A DNA stretch of 64,000 nt from Rhodospirillaceae bacterium bin65 (GTDB taxonomy: Bacteria; Pseudomonadota; Alphaproteobacteria; Bin65), in assembly GCA_002238725.1 (NCBI GenBank), contig MPMX01000010.1:1-64000 (forward strand). The letters run 5' to 3'. The notes below the pieces were generated by a model. It made no database searches. It was not told where the DNA came from and saw only the letters and a list, made by a program, of their open reading frames with translations. Below, piece after piece: positions 11,000-44,595 of the stretch (position 1 is the first letter of the stretch; each line of letters starts with the position of its first letter). Position numbers and translations under genes: made by a program.

Positions 11000-11866
11000 T
11001 CAGTCGACCGCCCGGGGAAACAGGCCGCGCGGCCGCACCACCAGGAGGATCAGGAATACGACATGGCCGGCCAGTTGGTCGGCACCCGGGAACAGCTTGC
11101 CGCCGACGATCTGCGAGACCCCCAGGATGATCCCGCCGGCAAGCGTGCCCCACAGGCTGCCCAGCCCGCCGATGATCACCGCTTCGAAGGCATAGATCAG
11201 CCGGCCCGGCCCGATGCTGGGATCGAAGGAGGTGCGCATGCCGAGGAACACGCCGGCAAGCGCGACGACCGCCAGCGAGATTGCCATGGCAAGCGCGAAG
11301 ATATGGCGGTTGTCGATGCCCATCAGGCGCGCCGTGTCGGCATCGTCGGAGGTCGCGCGGAAGGCGCTGCCCAGCGCGGTGCGGTAGAACAGGAACTGCA
11401 GGCCGGCGATGACGGCGATGGCGCAGGCGAAGACGATCATCGGGAACACGCCGACCGCCAGCCCCTCGACGATTTGCAGACTCGCCGTCTGAAGCGCGCC
11501 GGCTGGCAGCTTCTGGCTGTCCGCCGAGAAGATTTCCAGCAATGCGTTCTGGATGACGATGGACAGGCCGAAGGTGACGAGCAGCGGCGGCAGGATATCC
11601 GGCCCCAGGGTGAAATTGAGCAGGCCGCGCTGGAGCGCGTAACCGAAGGCGAACATCAGCGGCACGACGATCAGCAGCGCGATCAGCGGATGCATGCCGA
11701 CGCCGGTGACAATCGCCAGGCCGAGGAAACTCGACAGCACGATCAGGTCACCGTGGGCGATGTTGACCAGCCGCATGACGCCGAAGATGAGCGACAGGCC
11801 GGTGGCGAACAGCGCATAGAGCCCGCCGACCAGAACGCCCTGTATGACGGCGTTTACCCAGTCCAT
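11000..11866 (-). CDS. livH: Branched-chain amino acid-type ABC transporter permease LivH
   Basis: A 288-residue LivH-family permease. It begins MDWVNAVIQGVLVGGLYALF and shows the family stretches GVMRLVNIAHGDLIVLSSFL, ALGSAFRATSDDADTARLMG (coupling loop) and FEAVIIGGLGSLWGTLAGGI. About eight membrane helices are predicted. It forms the heterodimeric channel with LivM, whose gene starts 12 bp further on. The gap to the upstream livF gene is 16 bp, consistent with one transcript. Confidence 0.93.
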   Translation of the reverse strand: MDWVNAVIQGVLVGGLYALFATGLSLIFGVMRLVNIAHGDLIVLSSFLGLAIVTGVGMHPLIALLIVVPLMFAFGYALQRGLLNFTLGPDILPPLLVTFGLSIVIQNALLEIFSADSQKLPAGALQTASLQIVEGLAVGVFPMIVFACAIAVIAGLQFLFYRTALGSAFRATSDDADTARLMGIDNRHIFALAMAISLAVVALAGVFLGMRTSFDPSIGPGRLIYAFEAVIIGGLGSLWGTLAGGIILGVSQIVGGKLFPGADQLAGHVVFLILLVVRPRGLFPRAVD

Positions 11867-11882
11867 CGGTCGACCCCGCCCA

Positions 11883-12589
<707 letters not shown>

Positions 12590-12593
<4 letters not shown>

Positions 12594-13312
12594 TCCGCGC
12601 CGATCCCCATGTAGATTTCCTGCACCTGGTCGCTGTTCATCACGGTGTGCGGATCGCCGTCGTCGATCTTCACGCCGAAGTTGATGACGATCAGGCGGTC
12701 CACCAGGGAAAGCAGCGCGTGAACGATATGCTCGATCCAGACGATCGAGACACCGCCGGCACGGATCTCCCGAATCGTCTCTACCAAGGCGAGGCATTCC
12801 TCCTCGGTCAGTCCGCCGGCGATCTCGTCGAGCAGCAGAACCTTGGGGTCCGACGCCAGCGCGCGCGCCAGTTCGAGGCGCTTGCGCTCGAGCAGGGAAA
12901 GGCTGCCCGCCAGCGTGTTCGCCTTGGCGATCAGTCCGGTCTTTTCCAGAATTTCGGCACAGGGGCGGTAGCACTGGGATTCCGGCCGGCCGGTGCCGAA
13001 GGCCGCGCCGACCAGCAAATTCTCGAACACCGTCATGCCGACAAAGGGATGCGGGATCTGGTAGGAACGGCCGATGCCCCGGCGGCAGCGCTCATGGGCC
13101 GGCACCGCGGTAATGTCCGCCCCGTCGAACGAAACCCGCCCGGCGTCGGGCGCCAGGCCGCCGCTGATCAGGTTAAACAGCGTCGTCTTGCCGGCGCCGT
13201 TCGGCCCGATCACGCCCAGCGCCTCGCCCTCGTCGAGATGCATGTTGAGATCGTCGATTACGACCAGCGAGCCGAATGACTTGCGCGCGTTATGGAGTTC
13301 GATCTGGGGCAT
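12590..13312 (-). CDS. livG: ABC transporter ATP-binding protein LivG
   Basis: A 240-residue ATPase of the LivG subgroup. It has Walker A GPNGAGKTT, the LivG-typical RRGIGRSYQIPHPFVGMTVF, signature LSLLERKRLELARALA and Walker B VLLLDEIAGGLTEEE. The signature sequence has LSLLERKR in place of LSGGQ, which is common in LivG proteins where the L-x-x-x-x-R-K-R-L-E-x-A-R pattern is kept. It lies 75 bp downstream of the binding-protein gene, with a strong hairpin in the gap, and overlaps livF by 4 bases. Confidence 0.92.
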
Positions 13313-13330
13313 TGTTCCTTTCCACTGCCA

Positions 13331-13358
13331 CCGGGTCGGGGCAATCGCCCCGACCCGG
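13331..13358 (-). terminator. Perfect 12 bp hairpin between livK and livG
   Basis: CCGGGTCGGGGC and GCCCCGACCCGG form a 12 bp GC-rich stem around a 4-base loop, in the 75 bp gap between the binding-protein gene and livG. No T-run follows on the minus strand, so full termination is doubtful. It more likely protects the 3' end of the livK message or attenuates transcription, giving more binding protein than permease. Confidence 0.5.
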
Positions 13359-13387
13359 TACGTCCGTCCGAAAGAGCGCTTAACGGC

Positions 13388-14677
13388 CTACGAAATCGGC
13401 TCCATCTTGCCGCCCGCCGGAATGATCGGGGCGGTTTCGTTGGCGGTGATGACCAGGTCGTACTTGAACTTCTTGTCCACATAGCGCCACTGGCCGCCGA
13501 CCAGCGGGGTCTTCGACACGTTCTTGAACGGGCCACCCTTCGTCCAGTCGACCGGGCCGACGATGGTGCCGGCCTTGGTCGCGGCCAGCGCCTTCAGGTT
13601 GGCCTCGTTGTCGGTCGGATCCGCGGAGCGCTTGACGACGTCGACAGCGACCTCGAACAGCGCGTGGACGAAGCCGATGACCTGGGTCCACTGCTTCCCG
13701 GTGCCCGCTGTATAGGACTGGGCGAAGGCGCCCGCCGATTCGCCGGTGATCGACGATTTGAACGGATGGGTCGGCGTCCACCAGACCTCCGAGGAGAGGT
13801 TGTGGGCGTTCTTGCCCATGCTCTCGATCACGACGGGATAAAGCAGCGCCTTGCCGACCGACACGGCCTTGGGATTGAAGCCCTGCTGCTTGGCCTGGTT
13901 CCAGAAGGTGATGAAGTCCGGCGGGATCATCACGCCGGTGACGATCTCGGCCTTGGCCTTCTTGAACGCCGAAATGTAGTTCGAGAAGTTGTCGTTCAGG
14001 TTCTGGTAGCGGCCGGGGTCGGTCAGCGTATAGCCCTTCTTGGCGAGGACCGGCGGGAAGCCCAGCTTCTTGTCGCCCCAGGCGTTGCCGTCGCCGTCGT
14101 TGGGGAACAGGGCGCCGACGGATTTGTTGGTCGCCACCTTGGACCACATGTTGGTGAACACGGCGATCACGTCTTCCAGGCCCCAGAAGAAGTGGTAGGT
14201 CCACTTGAAGCCCTCGCCCGGCTTGCCGCCCCGGGTGAAATACCAGGGCTGCCAGGGCGCCAGCGACGAGATGCAGGGCACGTCGTTGGCCTCGCACTGG
14301 TCGCCGACCGGGTTGGTGGTCTCCGGCGTCGAGCCGACCAGGATTAGATGGACCTCGTCCTTCAGGATCAGGTCGGCGGCGACGGCAGCGGCGCGGTTCG
14401 GGTTGGACTGGCTGTCCTTCTCGATGATCTCGATAGTGTAGGTCTTGCCGCCCGATTTCACACCGCCCTTGAGCGCCTCGCGGATCTTGTCGATCACGAA
14501 GCGATCGGCCTCGCCGAACGGCGCCAGCGGCCCGGTCTTCGGGCTGACGAAGCCGATCTTGACGGTCTTCGATGCGGCCAGCGCCGCCGGGGCGCCAAGG
14601 GCCGATGCCGCCGCGGCGCCGGCACCGATCTGCAGGGCGTGACGCCGCGAAAGCGTCGTCTTGGTCGTTTCAGTCAT
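13388..14677 (-). CDS. ABC transporter substrate-binding protein, LivK/amide-urea family
   Basis: A 429-residue periplasmic binding protein (Peripla_BP_6 type). The N-terminus MTETTKTTLSRRHALQIGAG carries a twin-arginine SRRHAL motif with a following A-rich hydrophobic segment, so Tat export is likely. The mature part begins KTVKIGFVSPKTGPLAPFGE, the standard opening of this family, followed by LILVGSTPETTNPVGDQCEA. An AGGAGG ribosome-binding site precedes the ATG. The gene follows the maleylacetate reductase gene by 44 bp and leads the livGFHM genes, so it should bind the compound degraded by the block or a precursor of it. The exact ligand cannot be read from the sequence. Confidence 0.9.
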   Translation of the reverse strand: MTETTKTTLSRRHALQIGAGAAAASALGAPAALAASKTVKIGFVSPKTGPLAPFGEADRFVIDKIREALKGGVKSGGKTYTIEIIEKDSQSNPNRAAAVAADLILKDEVHLILVGSTPETTNPVGDQCEANDVPCISSLAPWQPWYFTRGGKPGEGFKWTYHFFWGLEDVIAVFTNMWSKVATNKSVGALFPNDGDGNAWGDKKLGFPPVLAKKGYTLTDPGRYQNLNDNFSNYISAFKKAKAEIVTGVMIPPDFITFWNQAKQQGFNPKAVSVGKALLYPVVIESMGKNAHNLSSEVWWTPTHPFKSSITGESAGAFAQSYTAGTGKQWTQVIGFVHALFEVAVDVVKRSADPTDNEANLKALAATKAGTIVGPVDWTKGGPFKNVSKTPLVGGQWRYVDKKFKYDLVITANETAPIIPAGGKMEPIS

Positions 14678-21244: not shown

Positions 21245-22195
21245 ATGTTAAAGCTGATTGCCCGGCGCCTCCTCCAGATGGTTATCATCATGGCGGTGGT
21301 GTCGTTGATCCTGTTCCTCGTCTTCGACAGCGACAAGTTCAAAAAGCAGATTGCCACCGCCGAACTCGGCGGTTTCTCCGTCGCGGCGATGTCAGACCAC
21401 GACTACCAGAAGTGGCTGAAAGACAAGGGCCTCGACGTTCCCGTCTACGAGCGCTACGCCCAATGGATCGGCGGCCTGCTGCAGGGCGATTTCGGCAAGT
21501 CGTTCGAGAAGGATGCGCCGGTCTCGAAAGTGATGGGCGAACGCCTGCTCAATACCGGCATCCTCGCCTTCTGGGTCTTCTTCCTGATGATCCCGCTATC
21601 GCTGATCTTCGGCATTGTCGCGGGGATGAAGGAGGGCTCCTTCCAGGACAGATCGGTGTCCTTCATCGCCGTCTTCACGACATCGATCCCCGAGATTGCG
21701 ACGGCGATCCTGCTCACCGTCATCATCGCGCTCGGCCTCGGCTGGCTGCCGTCGAAATCGGCCATGACCGGCGGCTGGAACTCGCTCGAACTGGTCCTGC
21801 CGGTCCTTACCCTGGTGCTCTACGACTTCGGCTATGTCGCCCGCATGACCCGAGCCTCGATGGCCGAGGTGATGACCTCGCAATATATCCGCACCGCGGT
21901 TCTGAAGGGCATTCCCTACGCCCGGGTGATCATGCGGCACGCGCTGCGCAACGCGCTGATCGCGCCGTTCACCGTGATCGTGCTGCAGCTCAACTGGCTG
22001 CTCTCCGGCGTTGTCGTGGTCGAGGTGTTCTTTCAGTACAACGGCTTCGGCAAGATGCTGCTCGAAGCCGCCCTGTTCGGCGATATCTATGTCGTCCAGG
22101 CGGCCACGCTGGTCGCGGTCTTCGTCGCCGTGCTTTCGCAAATCATTTCGGACGTCGGGTACACCTTCCTGAACCCGCGCATCCGGTTCAGCTAG
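21245..22195 (+). CDS. ABC transporter permease, DppB/OppB family
   Basis: A 316-residue inner-membrane permease starting MLKLIARRLLQMVIIMAVVS, the usual DppB start. A long periplasmic loop after helix 1 includes YERYAQWIGGLLQGDFGKSF, a family hallmark. The cytoplasmic EAA loop is seen as YIRTAVLKGIPYARVIMRHA. Six membrane helices are expected. It forms the translocation pore with the DppC-type permease encoded 9 bp downstream and is driven by the fused ATPase. Confidence 0.92.
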   Translation: MLKLIARRLLQMVIIMAVVSLILFLVFDSDKFKKQIATAELGGFSVAAMSDHDYQKWLKDKGLDVPVYERYAQWIGGLLQGDFGKSFEKDAPVSKVMGERLLNTGILAFWVFFLMIPLSLIFGIVAGMKEGSFQDRSVSFIAVFTTSIPEIATAILLTVIIALGLGWLPSKSAMTGGWNSLELVLPVLTLVLYDFGYVARMTRASMAEVMTSQYIRTAVLKGIPYARVIMRHALRNALIAPFTVIVLQLNWLLSGVVVVEVFFQYNGFGKMLLEAALFGDIYVVQAATLVAVFVAVLSQIISDVGYTFLNPRIRFS

Positions 22196-40202: not shown

Positions 40203-40270
40203 CCGCACTATATGGCTGCAGCCGGCCAGCGGGAACGGTGCGGCAATGTCTGCACGCCGTGCAGGCTGCC

Positions 40271-40383
40271 CTTCGCAAGGCGTGCATCGCGTCACCCCCT
40301 CTGGACCGGGTTGCCGCCGTGTGTACACTCACGCCAGTGTCCGGGAAACCCGAACGAGGAGCCGCCCGATGGCCGCAATCGAG
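40271..40383 (+). repeat. Direct repeat copy 2 (promoter plus thiolase gene start)
   Basis: This is the right-hand copy of the repeat at 36871-36983, offset by exactly 3400 bases. Here it ends in the functional ATG of the thiolase gene with AGGA before it. It contains the promoter-like TGGACC-N16-TACACT and the GTGTACAC palindrome, so this copy probably drives the thiolase-ligase-AhpD genes. Confidence 0.75.
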
Positions 40384-41583
40384 AATGTCCGCATCCCCTA
40401 TGGCGCCTATTGGAGCACGCCGTTTTCCAAATGGCAGAACAGCTTCGCCGACCTGCATTCGATCAGGTTCGCCGCCCATGTCGCCAAGGAGGCGCTGGCC
40501 GAGCGGGAGATCGACCCGCAGAGTTTCGACCATGCGGTGATGGGCATCACGACGCCCCAGGAATCGAGTTTTTTCGGCTTGCCCTGGCTGATGAAGATGA
40601 TCGGCAACGACGCCGTGCCCGGCACCCAGGTCTCCCAGGCCTGCGCAACCGGCGCGCGCGTGCTCCAGACCGCCTCCTTCGAGATCGAGCGCGGCATGGG
40701 CAGCGCCTCGCTCTGCGTTGCGGCGGACCGAACGTCGAACGGCCCGGTGCTGAGCTATCCGAGCCCATCCAATCCCGGCGGCGCGCCGGATATCGAGCGT
40801 TGGCCGATCGACGGGTTCGAGGGCGATCCGCTGGGTGGTCCGCCGATGGTCGGCACGGCGGAGAACTGCGCCCGCGACTGGCAGGTCTCCACCGAGGAGC
40901 AGCACGATGTGGTGGTCCGGCGCTGGGAACAGTATGAGATGGCGCTGGAAGACGATCACGCCTTCCAGAAGGGCTATATGAAACTGCCCTTCGAAGTGCC
41001 GGACAAGCGCTTCCGCAAGACGGTCGTCGCCATCAAAAGCGACGAGGGCGTGCGGCCCTCGACGCGCGAAGGCCTGGCGCGGCTCAAGCCGGTGCAGCCG
41101 GACGGCACGGTCACCTTCGGCGGCCAGACCCATCCGGCCGACGGCAACGCCGCCGTCGTCCTGGCGACGCCGGACAAGGCGCGCGCGCTGTCGAGGGACC
41201 CGTCGATCGACATCGCGGTGCTCGGCTTCGGCATGGCGCGGACGAAGCCGCATTACATGCCGGTAGCGCCGGTGCCGGCGGCGCAGAAGGCGCTCGACAT
41301 GGCCGGCCTGACGATCGGCGACATCGATGCGGTGAAGACCCACAACCCGTTTGCCGTCAACGACGTCGTGTTCGCCCGGGAGACCGGCTTCGACGTCGAC
41401 GCAATGAACAACTACGGCTGCTCGCTGATCTTCGGCCATCCGAACGGGCCGACCGGCCTGCGCCTGGTGATCGAGCTGGTCGAGGAACTGGTGCAGCGCG
41501 GCGGCGGGCGTGGCCTGTTTACGGGCTGCGCGGCCGGCGACAGCGCGATGGCGGTCGTCGTGGAGGTGTCGCAGGCCCGATGA
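40369..41583 (+). CDS. Thiolase-family protein (acetyl-CoA acetyltransferase-like)
   Basis: A 404-residue thiolase-fold enzyme of normal length. The nucleophilic cysteine is C92 in QVSQACATGARVLQ. The second active-site region is KTHNPFAVNDVVFA, and the C-terminal loop FGHPNGPTGLRLV is followed by GRGLFTGCAAGDSAMAVVVE. Thiolases release acetyl-CoA from 3-ketoacyl-CoA or condense two acyl-CoAs. It overlaps the downstream acyl-CoA ligase gene by 4 bases (ATGA), so the two should act together, perhaps on an aryl-propanoyl-CoA after ligation. The start at 40369 has AGGA upstream; the open frame back to 40246 crosses the repeat and promoter and is not coding. Confidence 0.85.
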   Translation: MAAIENVRIPYGAYWSTPFSKWQNSFADLHSIRFAAHVAKEALAEREIDPQSFDHAVMGITTPQESSFFGLPWLMKMIGNDAVPGTQVSQACATGARVLQTASFEIERGMGSASLCVAADRTSNGPVLSYPSPSNPGGAPDIERWPIDGFEGDPLGGPPMVGTAENCARDWQVSTEEQHDVVVRRWEQYEMALEDDHAFQKGYMKLPFEVPDKRFRKTVVAIKSDEGVRPSTREGLARLKPVQPDGTVTFGGQTHPADGNAAVVLATPDKARALSRDPSIDIAVLGFGMARTKPHYMPVAPVPAAQKALDMAGLTIGDIDAVKTHNPFAVNDVVFARETGFDVDAMNNYGCSLIFGHPNGPTGLRLVIELVEELVQRGGGRGLFTGCAAGDSAMAVVVEVSQAR

Positions 41584-43475
41584 ACGACCCGCGCCCGATA
41601 CCCGACGCCGACCCGTCGACCGGCTGGACGAAGGACTGGCCCTTCACGCCGCTCCGGCTCGCCGAGCGATCGCTGGAGATCGAACGGCGCGATAACGGCG
41701 AGACGATCCTGCGCAACGCGACGCCGCTCAAGGCGTATCCGGTGCAGGTGTCCGACGACCTGCGCCAGCAGGCCGCGCGAATTCCGAGCCAAACCTTCCT
41801 GGCCCAGCGCGACGCGGACGGCGACTGGGTTCACCTGACCTATGCGGCTGCACGCGAGCAGGCCGACCGGGTCTCCCAATGGCTGCTCGACAACGGCCAC
41901 AACGGCGACAATCCGGTCGCCATCCTGAGCGACAACAGCCTGAATTTCGCGATCCTCCAACTCGGCGCGATGCAGGTCGGCATCCCGGCCATGCCGGTGT
42001 CGCCGGCCTATTCGCTCATGTCGAAGGATTTCGCCAAGGTCCGCTATGTCTGCGACAGCTTCACGCCGAGCCTGATCTATGTCGAGGATGCGGCCCTGTT
42101 CCGGCCGGCGCTGGAGGCGGTGAAGCCGGCTGCAACGGTCGTAGCGACGCGCAATGTCGAGGCCATCGCCGGCGCCATCCCGTTCGACGACCTGCTGGCC
42201 GGCGCGCCGGGCGAACCGGTCGAGCGGGCCTACGCGTCGGTGACCGGCGACAGTACCGGCAAGATCCTGCTGACCTCGGGCAGCACCGGCATGCCCAAGG
42301 GCGTCATCAACCCCCAGCGGCTGATGTGTTCGTCAGTCAACCAGATCGGCCAGGTCTGGCCGTTCCTGTACGACGAGCCGCCGGTGATCTGCGACTGGCT
42401 GCCCTGGAACCACACCTTCGCGGCGAACTTCTGTTTCAATATGGTACTGCGTTTCGGCGGCACCTACTGGATGGACGAGGGCAAGCCGGTGCCGGGCCGG
42501 TTCGAGGCGACCCTGCGCAACCTGCGCGAGGTCAGGATCAACCAGTACCTGAACGTCACCCGCGCCTACGACCTGCTGGTCCCGGCGCTCGAGGCCGACC
42601 CCGCCTTCGCCGAACACGTGCTCGGCGACTGCCGGTATCTGTTCTATGCCGGGGCCGGCATGCCCCAGGCGCTGTGGGACCGGATCGAGGCGCTGTCGAT
42701 CCGGGTGCGCGGCGCGCGCATTCCGATGATGACCTCGCTCGGCTCGACCGAGACCGGCCCGCCGGCGATCAAGGGCTACTGGCCGTGCGACCGGTCGGGC
42801 ACGGTCGGCCTGCCGATCCCCGGTCTCGAAGCCAAGCTGGCGCCTGCCGGCGGCAAGACGGAAATCCGCTTCCGCGGCCCGAACATCGCGCCGGGCTATT
42901 ACCGCAATCCGGAAAAGACCACCGAGGCGTTCGACGAAGAAGGCTTTTACAAGATCGGCGACGCCGTGAAATGGCTCGACGAGGCCGATCCGATGCAGGG
43001 CCTCAGCTTCGACGGCCGGGTGGCCGAGAATTTCAAGCTTCTGACCGGCACCTGGGTCGCAACCGGCGTGCTGCGCCTGGACGCGCTTTCCTTCCTCGGC
43101 CCGCTGGTGTCCGACGCCGCGGTAACCGGCGAGGACCGCGACGAGGTCGGCCTGCTCGGCTTCGCCAACCTAGAGGCCTGCAAGGCGGCGGTCGGCCCGC
43201 AGGCGGCGGATATGTCACCCGCCAAAATCGTCAGCCACCCGGCAGTCCACGATGCCCTGCGCGACAAGATCGCCGCCTACAACCGGGAGCATCGCGGCTC
43301 CAGCCAGCGCATCGCCCGCGTCCTGCTGATGACGGCGCCGCCCGACATCGACGCCGGCGAGATCACCGACAAGGGCTATCTCAACCAGCGCGCCATCCTG
43401 AACGCCCGCGCCGACCTGGTCGAACGGCTCTACGAGGGCGGCGGTGCGGACGTGGTGATGGCGTCGGCCGCTTGA
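41580..43475 (+). CDS. Acyl-CoA synthetase, feruloyl-CoA synthase-like
   Basis: A 631-residue adenylate-forming enzyme. ATP-binding motif LLTSGSTGMPKGVINP (A3) is near residue 225 and the A5 region is MMTSLGSTETGPPA. The acyl-binding middle part reads CDWLPWNHTFAANFCFNMVL, and FYKIGDAVKWLDE lies near the hinge. The N-terminal extension (FTPLRLAERSLEIERRDNGE) and the overall pattern are those of feruloyl-CoA synthases, which activate ferulate or related hydroxycinnamates with CoA. No enoyl-CoA hydratase/aldolase gene is adjacent; the thiolase upstream suggests a beta-oxidation-like side-chain shortening instead. A bile-acid or other aryl carboxylate cannot be excluded. Confidence 0.82.
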   Translation: MNDPRPIPDADPSTGWTKDWPFTPLRLAERSLEIERRDNGETILRNATPLKAYPVQVSDDLRQQAARIPSQTFLAQRDADGDWVHLTYAAAREQADRVSQWLLDNGHNGDNPVAILSDNSLNFAILQLGAMQVGIPAMPVSPAYSLMSKDFAKVRYVCDSFTPSLIYVEDAALFRPALEAVKPAATVVATRNVEAIAGAIPFDDLLAGAPGEPVERAYASVTGDSTGKILLTSGSTGMPKGVINPQRLMCSSVNQIGQVWPFLYDEPPVICDWLPWNHTFAANFCFNMVLRFGGTYWMDEGKPVPGRFEATLRNLREVRINQYLNVTRAYDLLVPALEADPAFAEHVLGDCRYLFYAGAGMPQALWDRIEALSIRVRGARIPMMTSLGSTETGPPAIKGYWPCDRSGTVGLPIPGLEAKLAPAGGKTEIRFRGPNIAPGYYRNPEKTTEAFDEEGFYKIGDAVKWLDEADPMQGLSFDGRVAENFKLLTGTWVATGVLRLDALSFLGPLVSDAAVTGEDRDEVGLLGFANLEACKAAVGPQAADMSPAKIVSHPAVHDALRDKIAAYNREHRGSSQRIARVLLMTAPPDIDAGEITDKGYLNQRAILNARADLVERLYEGGGADVVMASAA

Positions 43476-43506: not shown

Positions 43507-44595
43507 ATGAACTATTTCACCACAGCCGCCTTGCCGATCCGGGCCGATCTAGCCGCCGCGCTCAATCTTGGCTGGGCGCAGATCGGGGAGACCGGCGCAT
43601 GGCTGACCGGCGCCGAGCGCGTCGCGGTGGTGCGCGAGGCCCGGGCGGCGTGGGATTGCGCGGTGTGCCGGGAGCGCAAGACGGCGCTGTCGCCCTATGC
43701 TGTCGACGGCGACCACGATGCGGCAACCTGCCTGCCCGAGTCCTGGGTCGACGTCATCCACCGGGTCGTCACCGACGCCGGGCGGCTGACGGAGAAATGG
43801 TGCCTCGAGGTCCAAGGCCGGGGCATCGCGGAAGACGAGTATATCGAGCTTGTCACCGTAACGACGATCGCGACGGTGATCGATATTTTCGCGATGGCGA
43901 CCGGGCTGCCGGCGCCGGATCTGCCGATGGCGCAGGGCGGAACCCCGGCGCGGCAACGAGAGCCGACCGCGACGCCCGGCCCCGGCTGGGTCGCCACCAT
44001 CGCCCCGGAAAACGCCAGTGCCGATTTCGCAGATTTCTACGGCAACGATTCCGGCTTCTATATCCGCAGGTCGCTCACCCTGCTGCCTGGCGAGGCGCGC
44101 AAATTCTGGTCGGTCATGAACCTGCTCTACATGCAGGACCCGCGAATCCGCGAATTGGACGGGCTGGACCGGTCGATTTCCCGGGCCCAGATGGAATTCC
44201 TCGCTTCGCGCGCTTCGATGATGCTCGACTGCTACTACTGAACCACCAGCCATGCGGCGCGGCTCAGGTTGAGCGGCACGGAAACCGGCGACGACTACGA
44301 TCTCACCGCCATCACCGAAGGCGGCGACGGCGCCATGCCGAACGGCGCCGAACTGAACGCCTTCGTCGAAGCGATTCTAGGGCGCGACCCGGCCGCGATC
44401 GCGGCGGCCCGCACGGCCGTGGTCGAGGCGATGGGCGAGGCCGCCATGGTCGACGCCGCCGCCACCATCGCCGCCTTTAACGCCTATCCACGCGCCGCCG
44501 ACGCGACCGGCATTCCGCTGGAAGACGCCAAGCGGGAAGCGACGGCGGACCTGCGCCACGAACTCGGCCTCGACGCGCTGGAAGTGGCGGCCTGA
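43507..44595 (+). CDS. AhpD-like double-domain protein, probable selenoprotein (CxxU; TGA at 44239-44241)
   Basis: Reading through one TGA gives 362 residues with two AhpD/carboxymuconolactone-decarboxylase-like halves. The first has C51-A-V-C54 (RAAWDCAVCRERKTALSP). The second reads MMLDCYY-U-TTSHAARLRL, so the TGA is codon 245, exactly the second cysteine position of the redox CxxC (C242-Y-Y-U245), and H249 of the usual CxxCxxxH pattern is kept. After the TGA the same frame continues with a normal AhpD C-terminus (ELNAFVEAILGRDPAAIAAA, VDAAATIAAFNAYPRAADAT) to TGA at 44595. A hairpin with a GGU loop follows the TGA by 25 bases. The role is probably thiol-based peroxide or disulfide reduction. 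It follows the ligase gene by 31 bp. The alternative is a gene broken by a nonsense mutation into 43507-44241 and 44269-44595. Confidence 0.8.
44242..44281 (+). promoter_or_regulatory. Candidate bacterial SECIS hairpin after the in-frame TGA
   Basis: GCTCA (44262-44266), loop GGT (44267-44269) and TGAGC (44270-44274) form a perfect apical stem. Below it, after a G/G mismatch, further pairs C44260-G44276, G44259-C44277 and G44257-C44279 extend the stem. Bacterial SECIS elements lie inside the coding region directly after the UGA and present a small apical loop with G and U; the loop here starts 25 bases after the TGA. No folding program was run. Confidence 0.55.

Follow-up and report, generated by a model that had tools for sequence, protein, structure and literature searches.

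The window analysed here, a stretch of 64,000 nucleotides on contig C46 of the 4.29-Mb draft genome (94 contigs) of Rhodospirillaceae bacterium bin65, carries on its forward strand a gene of family NF041238 that very probably encodes a selenoprotein. Its reading frame contains a single internal stop codon, the TGA of codon 245 (LDCYY-U-TTSH when TGA is translated as selenocysteine, Sec), and ends at a second TGA (44593-44595). The features at this locus, and the two further copies of the gene in the same genome, are as follows.

40246-41583, forward strand: thiolase-family protein (Pfam Thiolase_N and Thiolase_C)
41580-43475, forward strand: AMP-binding acyl-CoA synthetase, whose 749 bits for NF009232 come close to the cut-off of 777
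43507-44595, forward strand: selenoprotein gene, family NF041238; 362 residues with Sec245 when TGA is translated as U
43657-43761, forward strand: N-terminal C51, C54, H70 and H85, a possible metal or dithiol site
44194-44253, forward strand: AhpD-type active site E230, C242, Y244, Sec245 and H249
44239-44241, forward strand: UGA codon 245, predicted to encode selenocysteine
44262-44274, forward strand: predicted apical stem-loop of the SECIS element; 44262-44265 pair with 44271-44274 around the loop 44266-44270, in which G44267 is invariant
Contig C86, 7081-8136: paralogue of the window gene (44-45% identity), also with a single in-frame TGA
Contig C90, 30568-31650: paralogue of the window gene (44-45% identity), also with a single in-frame TGA

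The TGA lies, as originally predicted, exactly where the second cysteine of the AhpD CxxC motif would be expected. The standard list of open reading frames ends the protein at 244 amino acids, so ordinary annotation would split the gene in two, which had also been foreseen; the 118 codons said to follow the TGA are in fact 117 up to the end stop. Elsewhere in the window, positions 21777-21939 of the reverse strand match the Rfam family Cis52_sRNA (RF02647) with 57.1 bits, the gathering score being 56.

A member of a catalogued selenoprotein family

The translated protein matches the NCBIfam model NF041238 (AhpD_rel_CFYUT, 'alkylhydroperoxidase-related (seleno)protein') with 429.7 bits, against a curated cut-off of 175, over positions 1-355 of 357, and its residues 242-246, CYYUT, agree with the motif C-x-x-U/C followed by T. 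According to a 2026 review (PMC13188914), this model corresponds to the CxxU family that a survey of the Sargasso Sea listed in 2005 as 'hypothetical protein 1' (PMC1088965). Taken together, the match and this correspondence make the window protein an addition to a selenoprotein family catalogued since 2005, and not the first of a new one. Our literature search found no other paper that names the model, and no biochemistry of the family. The double-domain form, which had been thought unusual, is the standard architecture of NF041238.

In length, CxxU motif and SECIS-bearing TGA the window protein resembles the rest of the family. It differs in falling, in a midpoint-rooted FastTree tree, within a clade (support 1.0) whose 22 members have the motif CYYUT or CFYUT and their own set of SECIS loops (AGGUU and similar). 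A copy from a genus-mate (contig C111 of genome G005), probably Rhodospirillaceae bacterium Spongia_Bin9 (FZLR01000045.1), is 91% identical, and that name suggests that bin65 is related to sponge symbionts. Matches to two other models stay below their cut-offs: TIGR01926 (peroxidase-related) reaches 31.6 bits over residues 222-337 (cut-off 81.8), and Pfam CMD (PF02627) reaches 13.2 bits over residues 221-254 (gathering cut-off 23). The selenoproteins AhpD-like 1, AhpD-like 2 and CMD of marine metagenomes (PMC2398784; PMC1088965) also have CxxU in an AhpD-type site, but the published tables treat them as separate families (COG2128/TIGR01926 and Pfam CMD), and for Pfam CMD the score of the window protein is, as noted, too low.

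Conservation of the in-frame TGA

In all 31 full-length homologues from near relatives, and in each of the 50 members that score above the cut-off of NF041238 in a sample of the class (27 of 385 genomes), the gene contains exactly one internal stop codon, which is always TGA; the view that this TGA did not hit the catalytic codon by chance is thus upheld. We further scanned 84,980 species genomes, and took from named genomes the best 80 of 349 relatives, mostly from Alpha- and Gammaproteobacteria, with some labelled Beta- or Deltaproteobacteria and one Myxococcota. All 80 have TGA in the codon-245 column, and one (L104) has a second stop besides. These three sets overlap; judged by the 45 bases from the TGA, they comprise at least 105 distinct sequences.

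It had been proposed to look for cysteine (TGC or TGT) at codon 245 of homologues. None was found among the best 80 of the 349 relatives, nor in the class sample, a phylum sample or plasmids; nor did unrelated residues turn up at this position, where TGA stands throughout. As the 2005 survey does count Cys homologues for 'hypothetical protein 1' (PMC1088965), the description of the family as Sec-only holds within what was searched, and the Cys forms of that survey may be infrequent or fall among lower-scoring relatives.

Could the TGA instead have arisen by nonsense mutation or misassembly, or mark a pseudogene, leaving two open reading frames or a dead gene? The splitting of the gene by standard calling and the draft state of the assembly would fit such an origin. 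However, the same TGA recurs in all family members across many independent assemblies, which excludes a sequencing error; the frame has no other stop here, and purifying selection continues 3' of the TGA, with dN/dS of 0.12-0.28 after it against 0.13-0.21 before it. We regard this explanation as having next to no chance of being right.

A conserved stem-loop downstream of the UGA

A bacterial SECIS element is recognised as a stem-loop just 3' of the UGA with a small loop that contains G, and such an element emerges from comparison of the 105 distinct sequences. When the U of UGA is numbered as base 1, bases 24-27 (GCUC) form pairs with bases 33-36 (GAGC) that are kept in 97-100% of the sequences, and all 105 have G as loop base 29 (44267). 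Two loci, L089 and L148, show a compensatory change of pair 27/33 from C-G to U-A, which takes two changes in different codons and retains Leu and Val or Glu. Codon usage is constrained in the same region. The +8 codon is CTC in 101 of 105 sequences, although CTC makes up 25% of Leu codons across these genes, and the +9 Arg codon is never CGC, which accounts for 40% of their Arg codons; where Ser or Gly replaces this Arg, the loop G is still kept. When the 62 conserved columns whose residue is four- or sixfold degenerate are ranked by the share of their commonest codon, the top five all fall at +2 to +12, and the constraint is confined to the stretch 3' of the TGA. Folding of the bases after the TGA, suggested earlier as a check, gave no significant structure, the sequence of the window copy alone folding no better than its shuffles, so the case for the SECIS element is a comparative one.

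Selenocysteine machinery and paralogues

The genome encodes the complete selenocysteine machinery, whose absence would have spoken against a selenoprotein: selA (551 bits), selB (396 bits), the gene for tRNA-Sec (selC; 72.6 bits against a gathering score of 47) and selD stand in a row on contig C90, all above their cut-offs. The selD gene (L161:7083-9314) is a fusion in which a pyridine nucleotide-disulfide oxidoreductase (TIGR03169, 448 bits) forms the N-terminal part and precedes selD (about 261-264 bits), an Ndh-SelD arrangement that is already known (PMC2398784).

All three family copies of this genome (on C46, C86 and C90) contain the TGA, and the C90 paralogue lies approximately 1.4 kb from the selD match. 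Family copies within about 6 kb of selA are also seen in seven genomes of the class sample (G002, G003, G004, G017, G100, G132 and G235). Over the 385 genomes, selA is present in 27 of 27 that bear a family member and in 29 of 358 that do not (Fisher p = 3e-26, a value that is more a description than a test because the genomes are not independent). The sel cluster and the C90 paralogue are flanked by two MTTB-type genes, of the trimethylamine methyltransferase Pfam family (L161:1515-3131 and 11853-13421), near which we also find a gene with a GCV_T domain and a luciferase-like monooxygenase gene. Formate dehydrogenase was considered as the main user of selenocysteine and rejected, the sole alpha subunit above the cut-off in the genome (C14, 13787-15838) having no internal TGA, even though the machinery is present.

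An open frame through a TGA does not by itself name the inserted residue, and general readthrough or a changed genetic code might place another amino acid at codon 245. Against this stand the TGA codons that terminate this gene and others here, the presence of selA in every family-bearing genome sampled, the conserved SECIS-like stem-loop and the location of the site at the catalytic Cys position of relatives, and we consider insertion of another residue very improbable. As the family, where found, is Sec-only, the support for selenocysteine comes from the conserved TGA, the SECIS element and the co-occurrence with selA, and not from Cys/Sec pairs. Together with the clustered sel genes, these lines uphold the prediction of a selenoprotein with a CxxU motif, and we put the probability that the gene encodes a genuine selenoprotein of family NF041238 at about 0.96, a figure derived from sequence data.

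Structure and active site

The catalytic set of AhpD-type oxidoreductases, E-x11-C-x-Y-C/U-x3-H, is found intact in the window protein, with spacing identical to that of the catalytic residues E74, C86, Y88, C89 and H93 of structure 2prr (PMC4674687). E230, C242, U245 and H249 are invariant among 127 members, and Y244 is present in 126 of them. The AlphaFold model is confident (pLDDT 93, pTM 0.93), and its best matches among solved structures are AhpD-type and cover half of it (6k40: TM 0.75 on the target, Foldseek probability 1.0, E-value 0.004). In a sequence-profile search the C-terminal half likewise matches 6k40 (E = 3e-14) and 2prr (5e-8). The N-terminal half, when modelled alone, again finds AhpD-type structures as top matches (2prr, 3c1l and 6k40; probability 1.0, E 0.02-0.05, rmsd about 8). 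Profile comparison of the two domains gave no match over the active-site region, so that the two-domain description rests on models and fold matches, which make a chain of two AhpD-like domains likely.

The C-terminal half thus resembles TIGR01926 proteins and the solved 6k40, 2prr and 3c1l in sequence, fold and E-C-Y-C/U-H spacing, whereas those have Cys in place of Sec and consist of a single AhpD domain of approximately 190 residues. Sestrin2 (PMC4674687) is likewise a single chain with two AhpD-like domains, of which the active one has Cys-x-Tyr-x4-His. However, its active domain is the first and has a single Cys, while that of the window protein is the second and has CxxU; the two superpose poorly (rmsd 13) and have no demonstrated sequence relation.

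A second set of residues lies in the N-terminal half. Nearly all members have C51, C54, H70 and H85, and where the cysteines are missing from a full-length member, the case in four (L046, L071, L072 and L073), both histidines are missing too. These four are divergent members that keep the C-terminal CxxU. Loss of the four residues together suggests that they form one common site, metal-binding or dithiol, and may reflect a single evolutionary loss.

Neighboring genes

The acyl-CoA synthetase gene and the selenoprotein gene share a strand, and 31 bases separate the end of the first from the start of the second. This arrangement would suit a selenoprotein that uses its AhpD fold for a special step with the thiolase and the acyl-CoA synthetase, acting on an aromatic or acyl-CoA substrate, rather than for general reduction of peroxides or disulfides, and the fold is indeed used for other reactions, as the debrominase Bmp8 (6ohi) among the fold matches illustrates. 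Yet among the best 80 of the 349 relatives the thiolase and CoA-ligase neighbors recur only beside the nearest one, L077, and no neighbor cluster is common to more than six of the 80 loci. Both paralogues adjoin unrelated genes, and the active site has the catalytic residues of AhpD proteins of the peroxidase type. We therefore reject a link to the CoA ligase and thiolase as a family trait, take the two genes as weak evidence for function, and consider the special step an unlikely role for the window protein. The double-domain form beside a feruloyl-CoA-synthase-like gene had earlier been called unusual; the double domain is the family norm, and the neighbor is confined to near relatives.

Discussion

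How might this selenoprotein work? We propose that SelB and tRNA-Sec decode UGA codon 245 as selenocysteine by means of the stem-loop, the apical part of which lies 20-33 bases 3' of the UGA; on the genomic evidence, we infer that this insertion occurs in the cell. The chain would probably fold into two AhpD-like helical domains. Its redox site, Cys242-x-x-Sec245, would lie in the second, where Glu230, Tyr244 and His249 take the positions of the proton relay known from AhpD. The protein would most likely use its selenol to reduce (alkyl) hydroperoxides or an oxidised partner. By analogy with established AhpD chemistry, Sec245 would attack the oxidant, form a selenenylsulfide with Cys242 and be reset by a cellular dithiol; the order Cys-x-x-Sec could also mean that Cys242 is the attacking residue. 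We lean, by a modest degree, toward reduction of a peroxide or disulfide as the reaction of the window protein, an assignment drawn from its characterised relatives.

What this analysis adds to the catalogued family is that all members found have selenocysteine, that one genome holds three copies, one of them beside the sel cluster, that the catalytic residues match those of AhpD, and that C51, C54, H70 and H85 are lost together. A joint and rather speculative reading would be that NF041238 is a two-domain AhpD family that depends obligately on Sec and has no Cys form among the genomes of today, that the N-terminal site, metal or dithiol, serves the C-terminal CxxU, and that the family, with its several copies, some of them close to the sel genes, is a main reason why these bacteria keep the selenocysteine trait.

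In conclusion, independent lines of evidence support UGA readthrough, in alphaproteobacteria related to sponge symbionts, for an uncharacterised redox family whose gene is split by standard annotation. The co-lost N-terminal residues pose a concrete biochemical question. With selenocysteine, and never cysteine, in every member found, and with no biochemistry found in our literature search, the family offers a clean test of why some enzymes keep selenocysteine.
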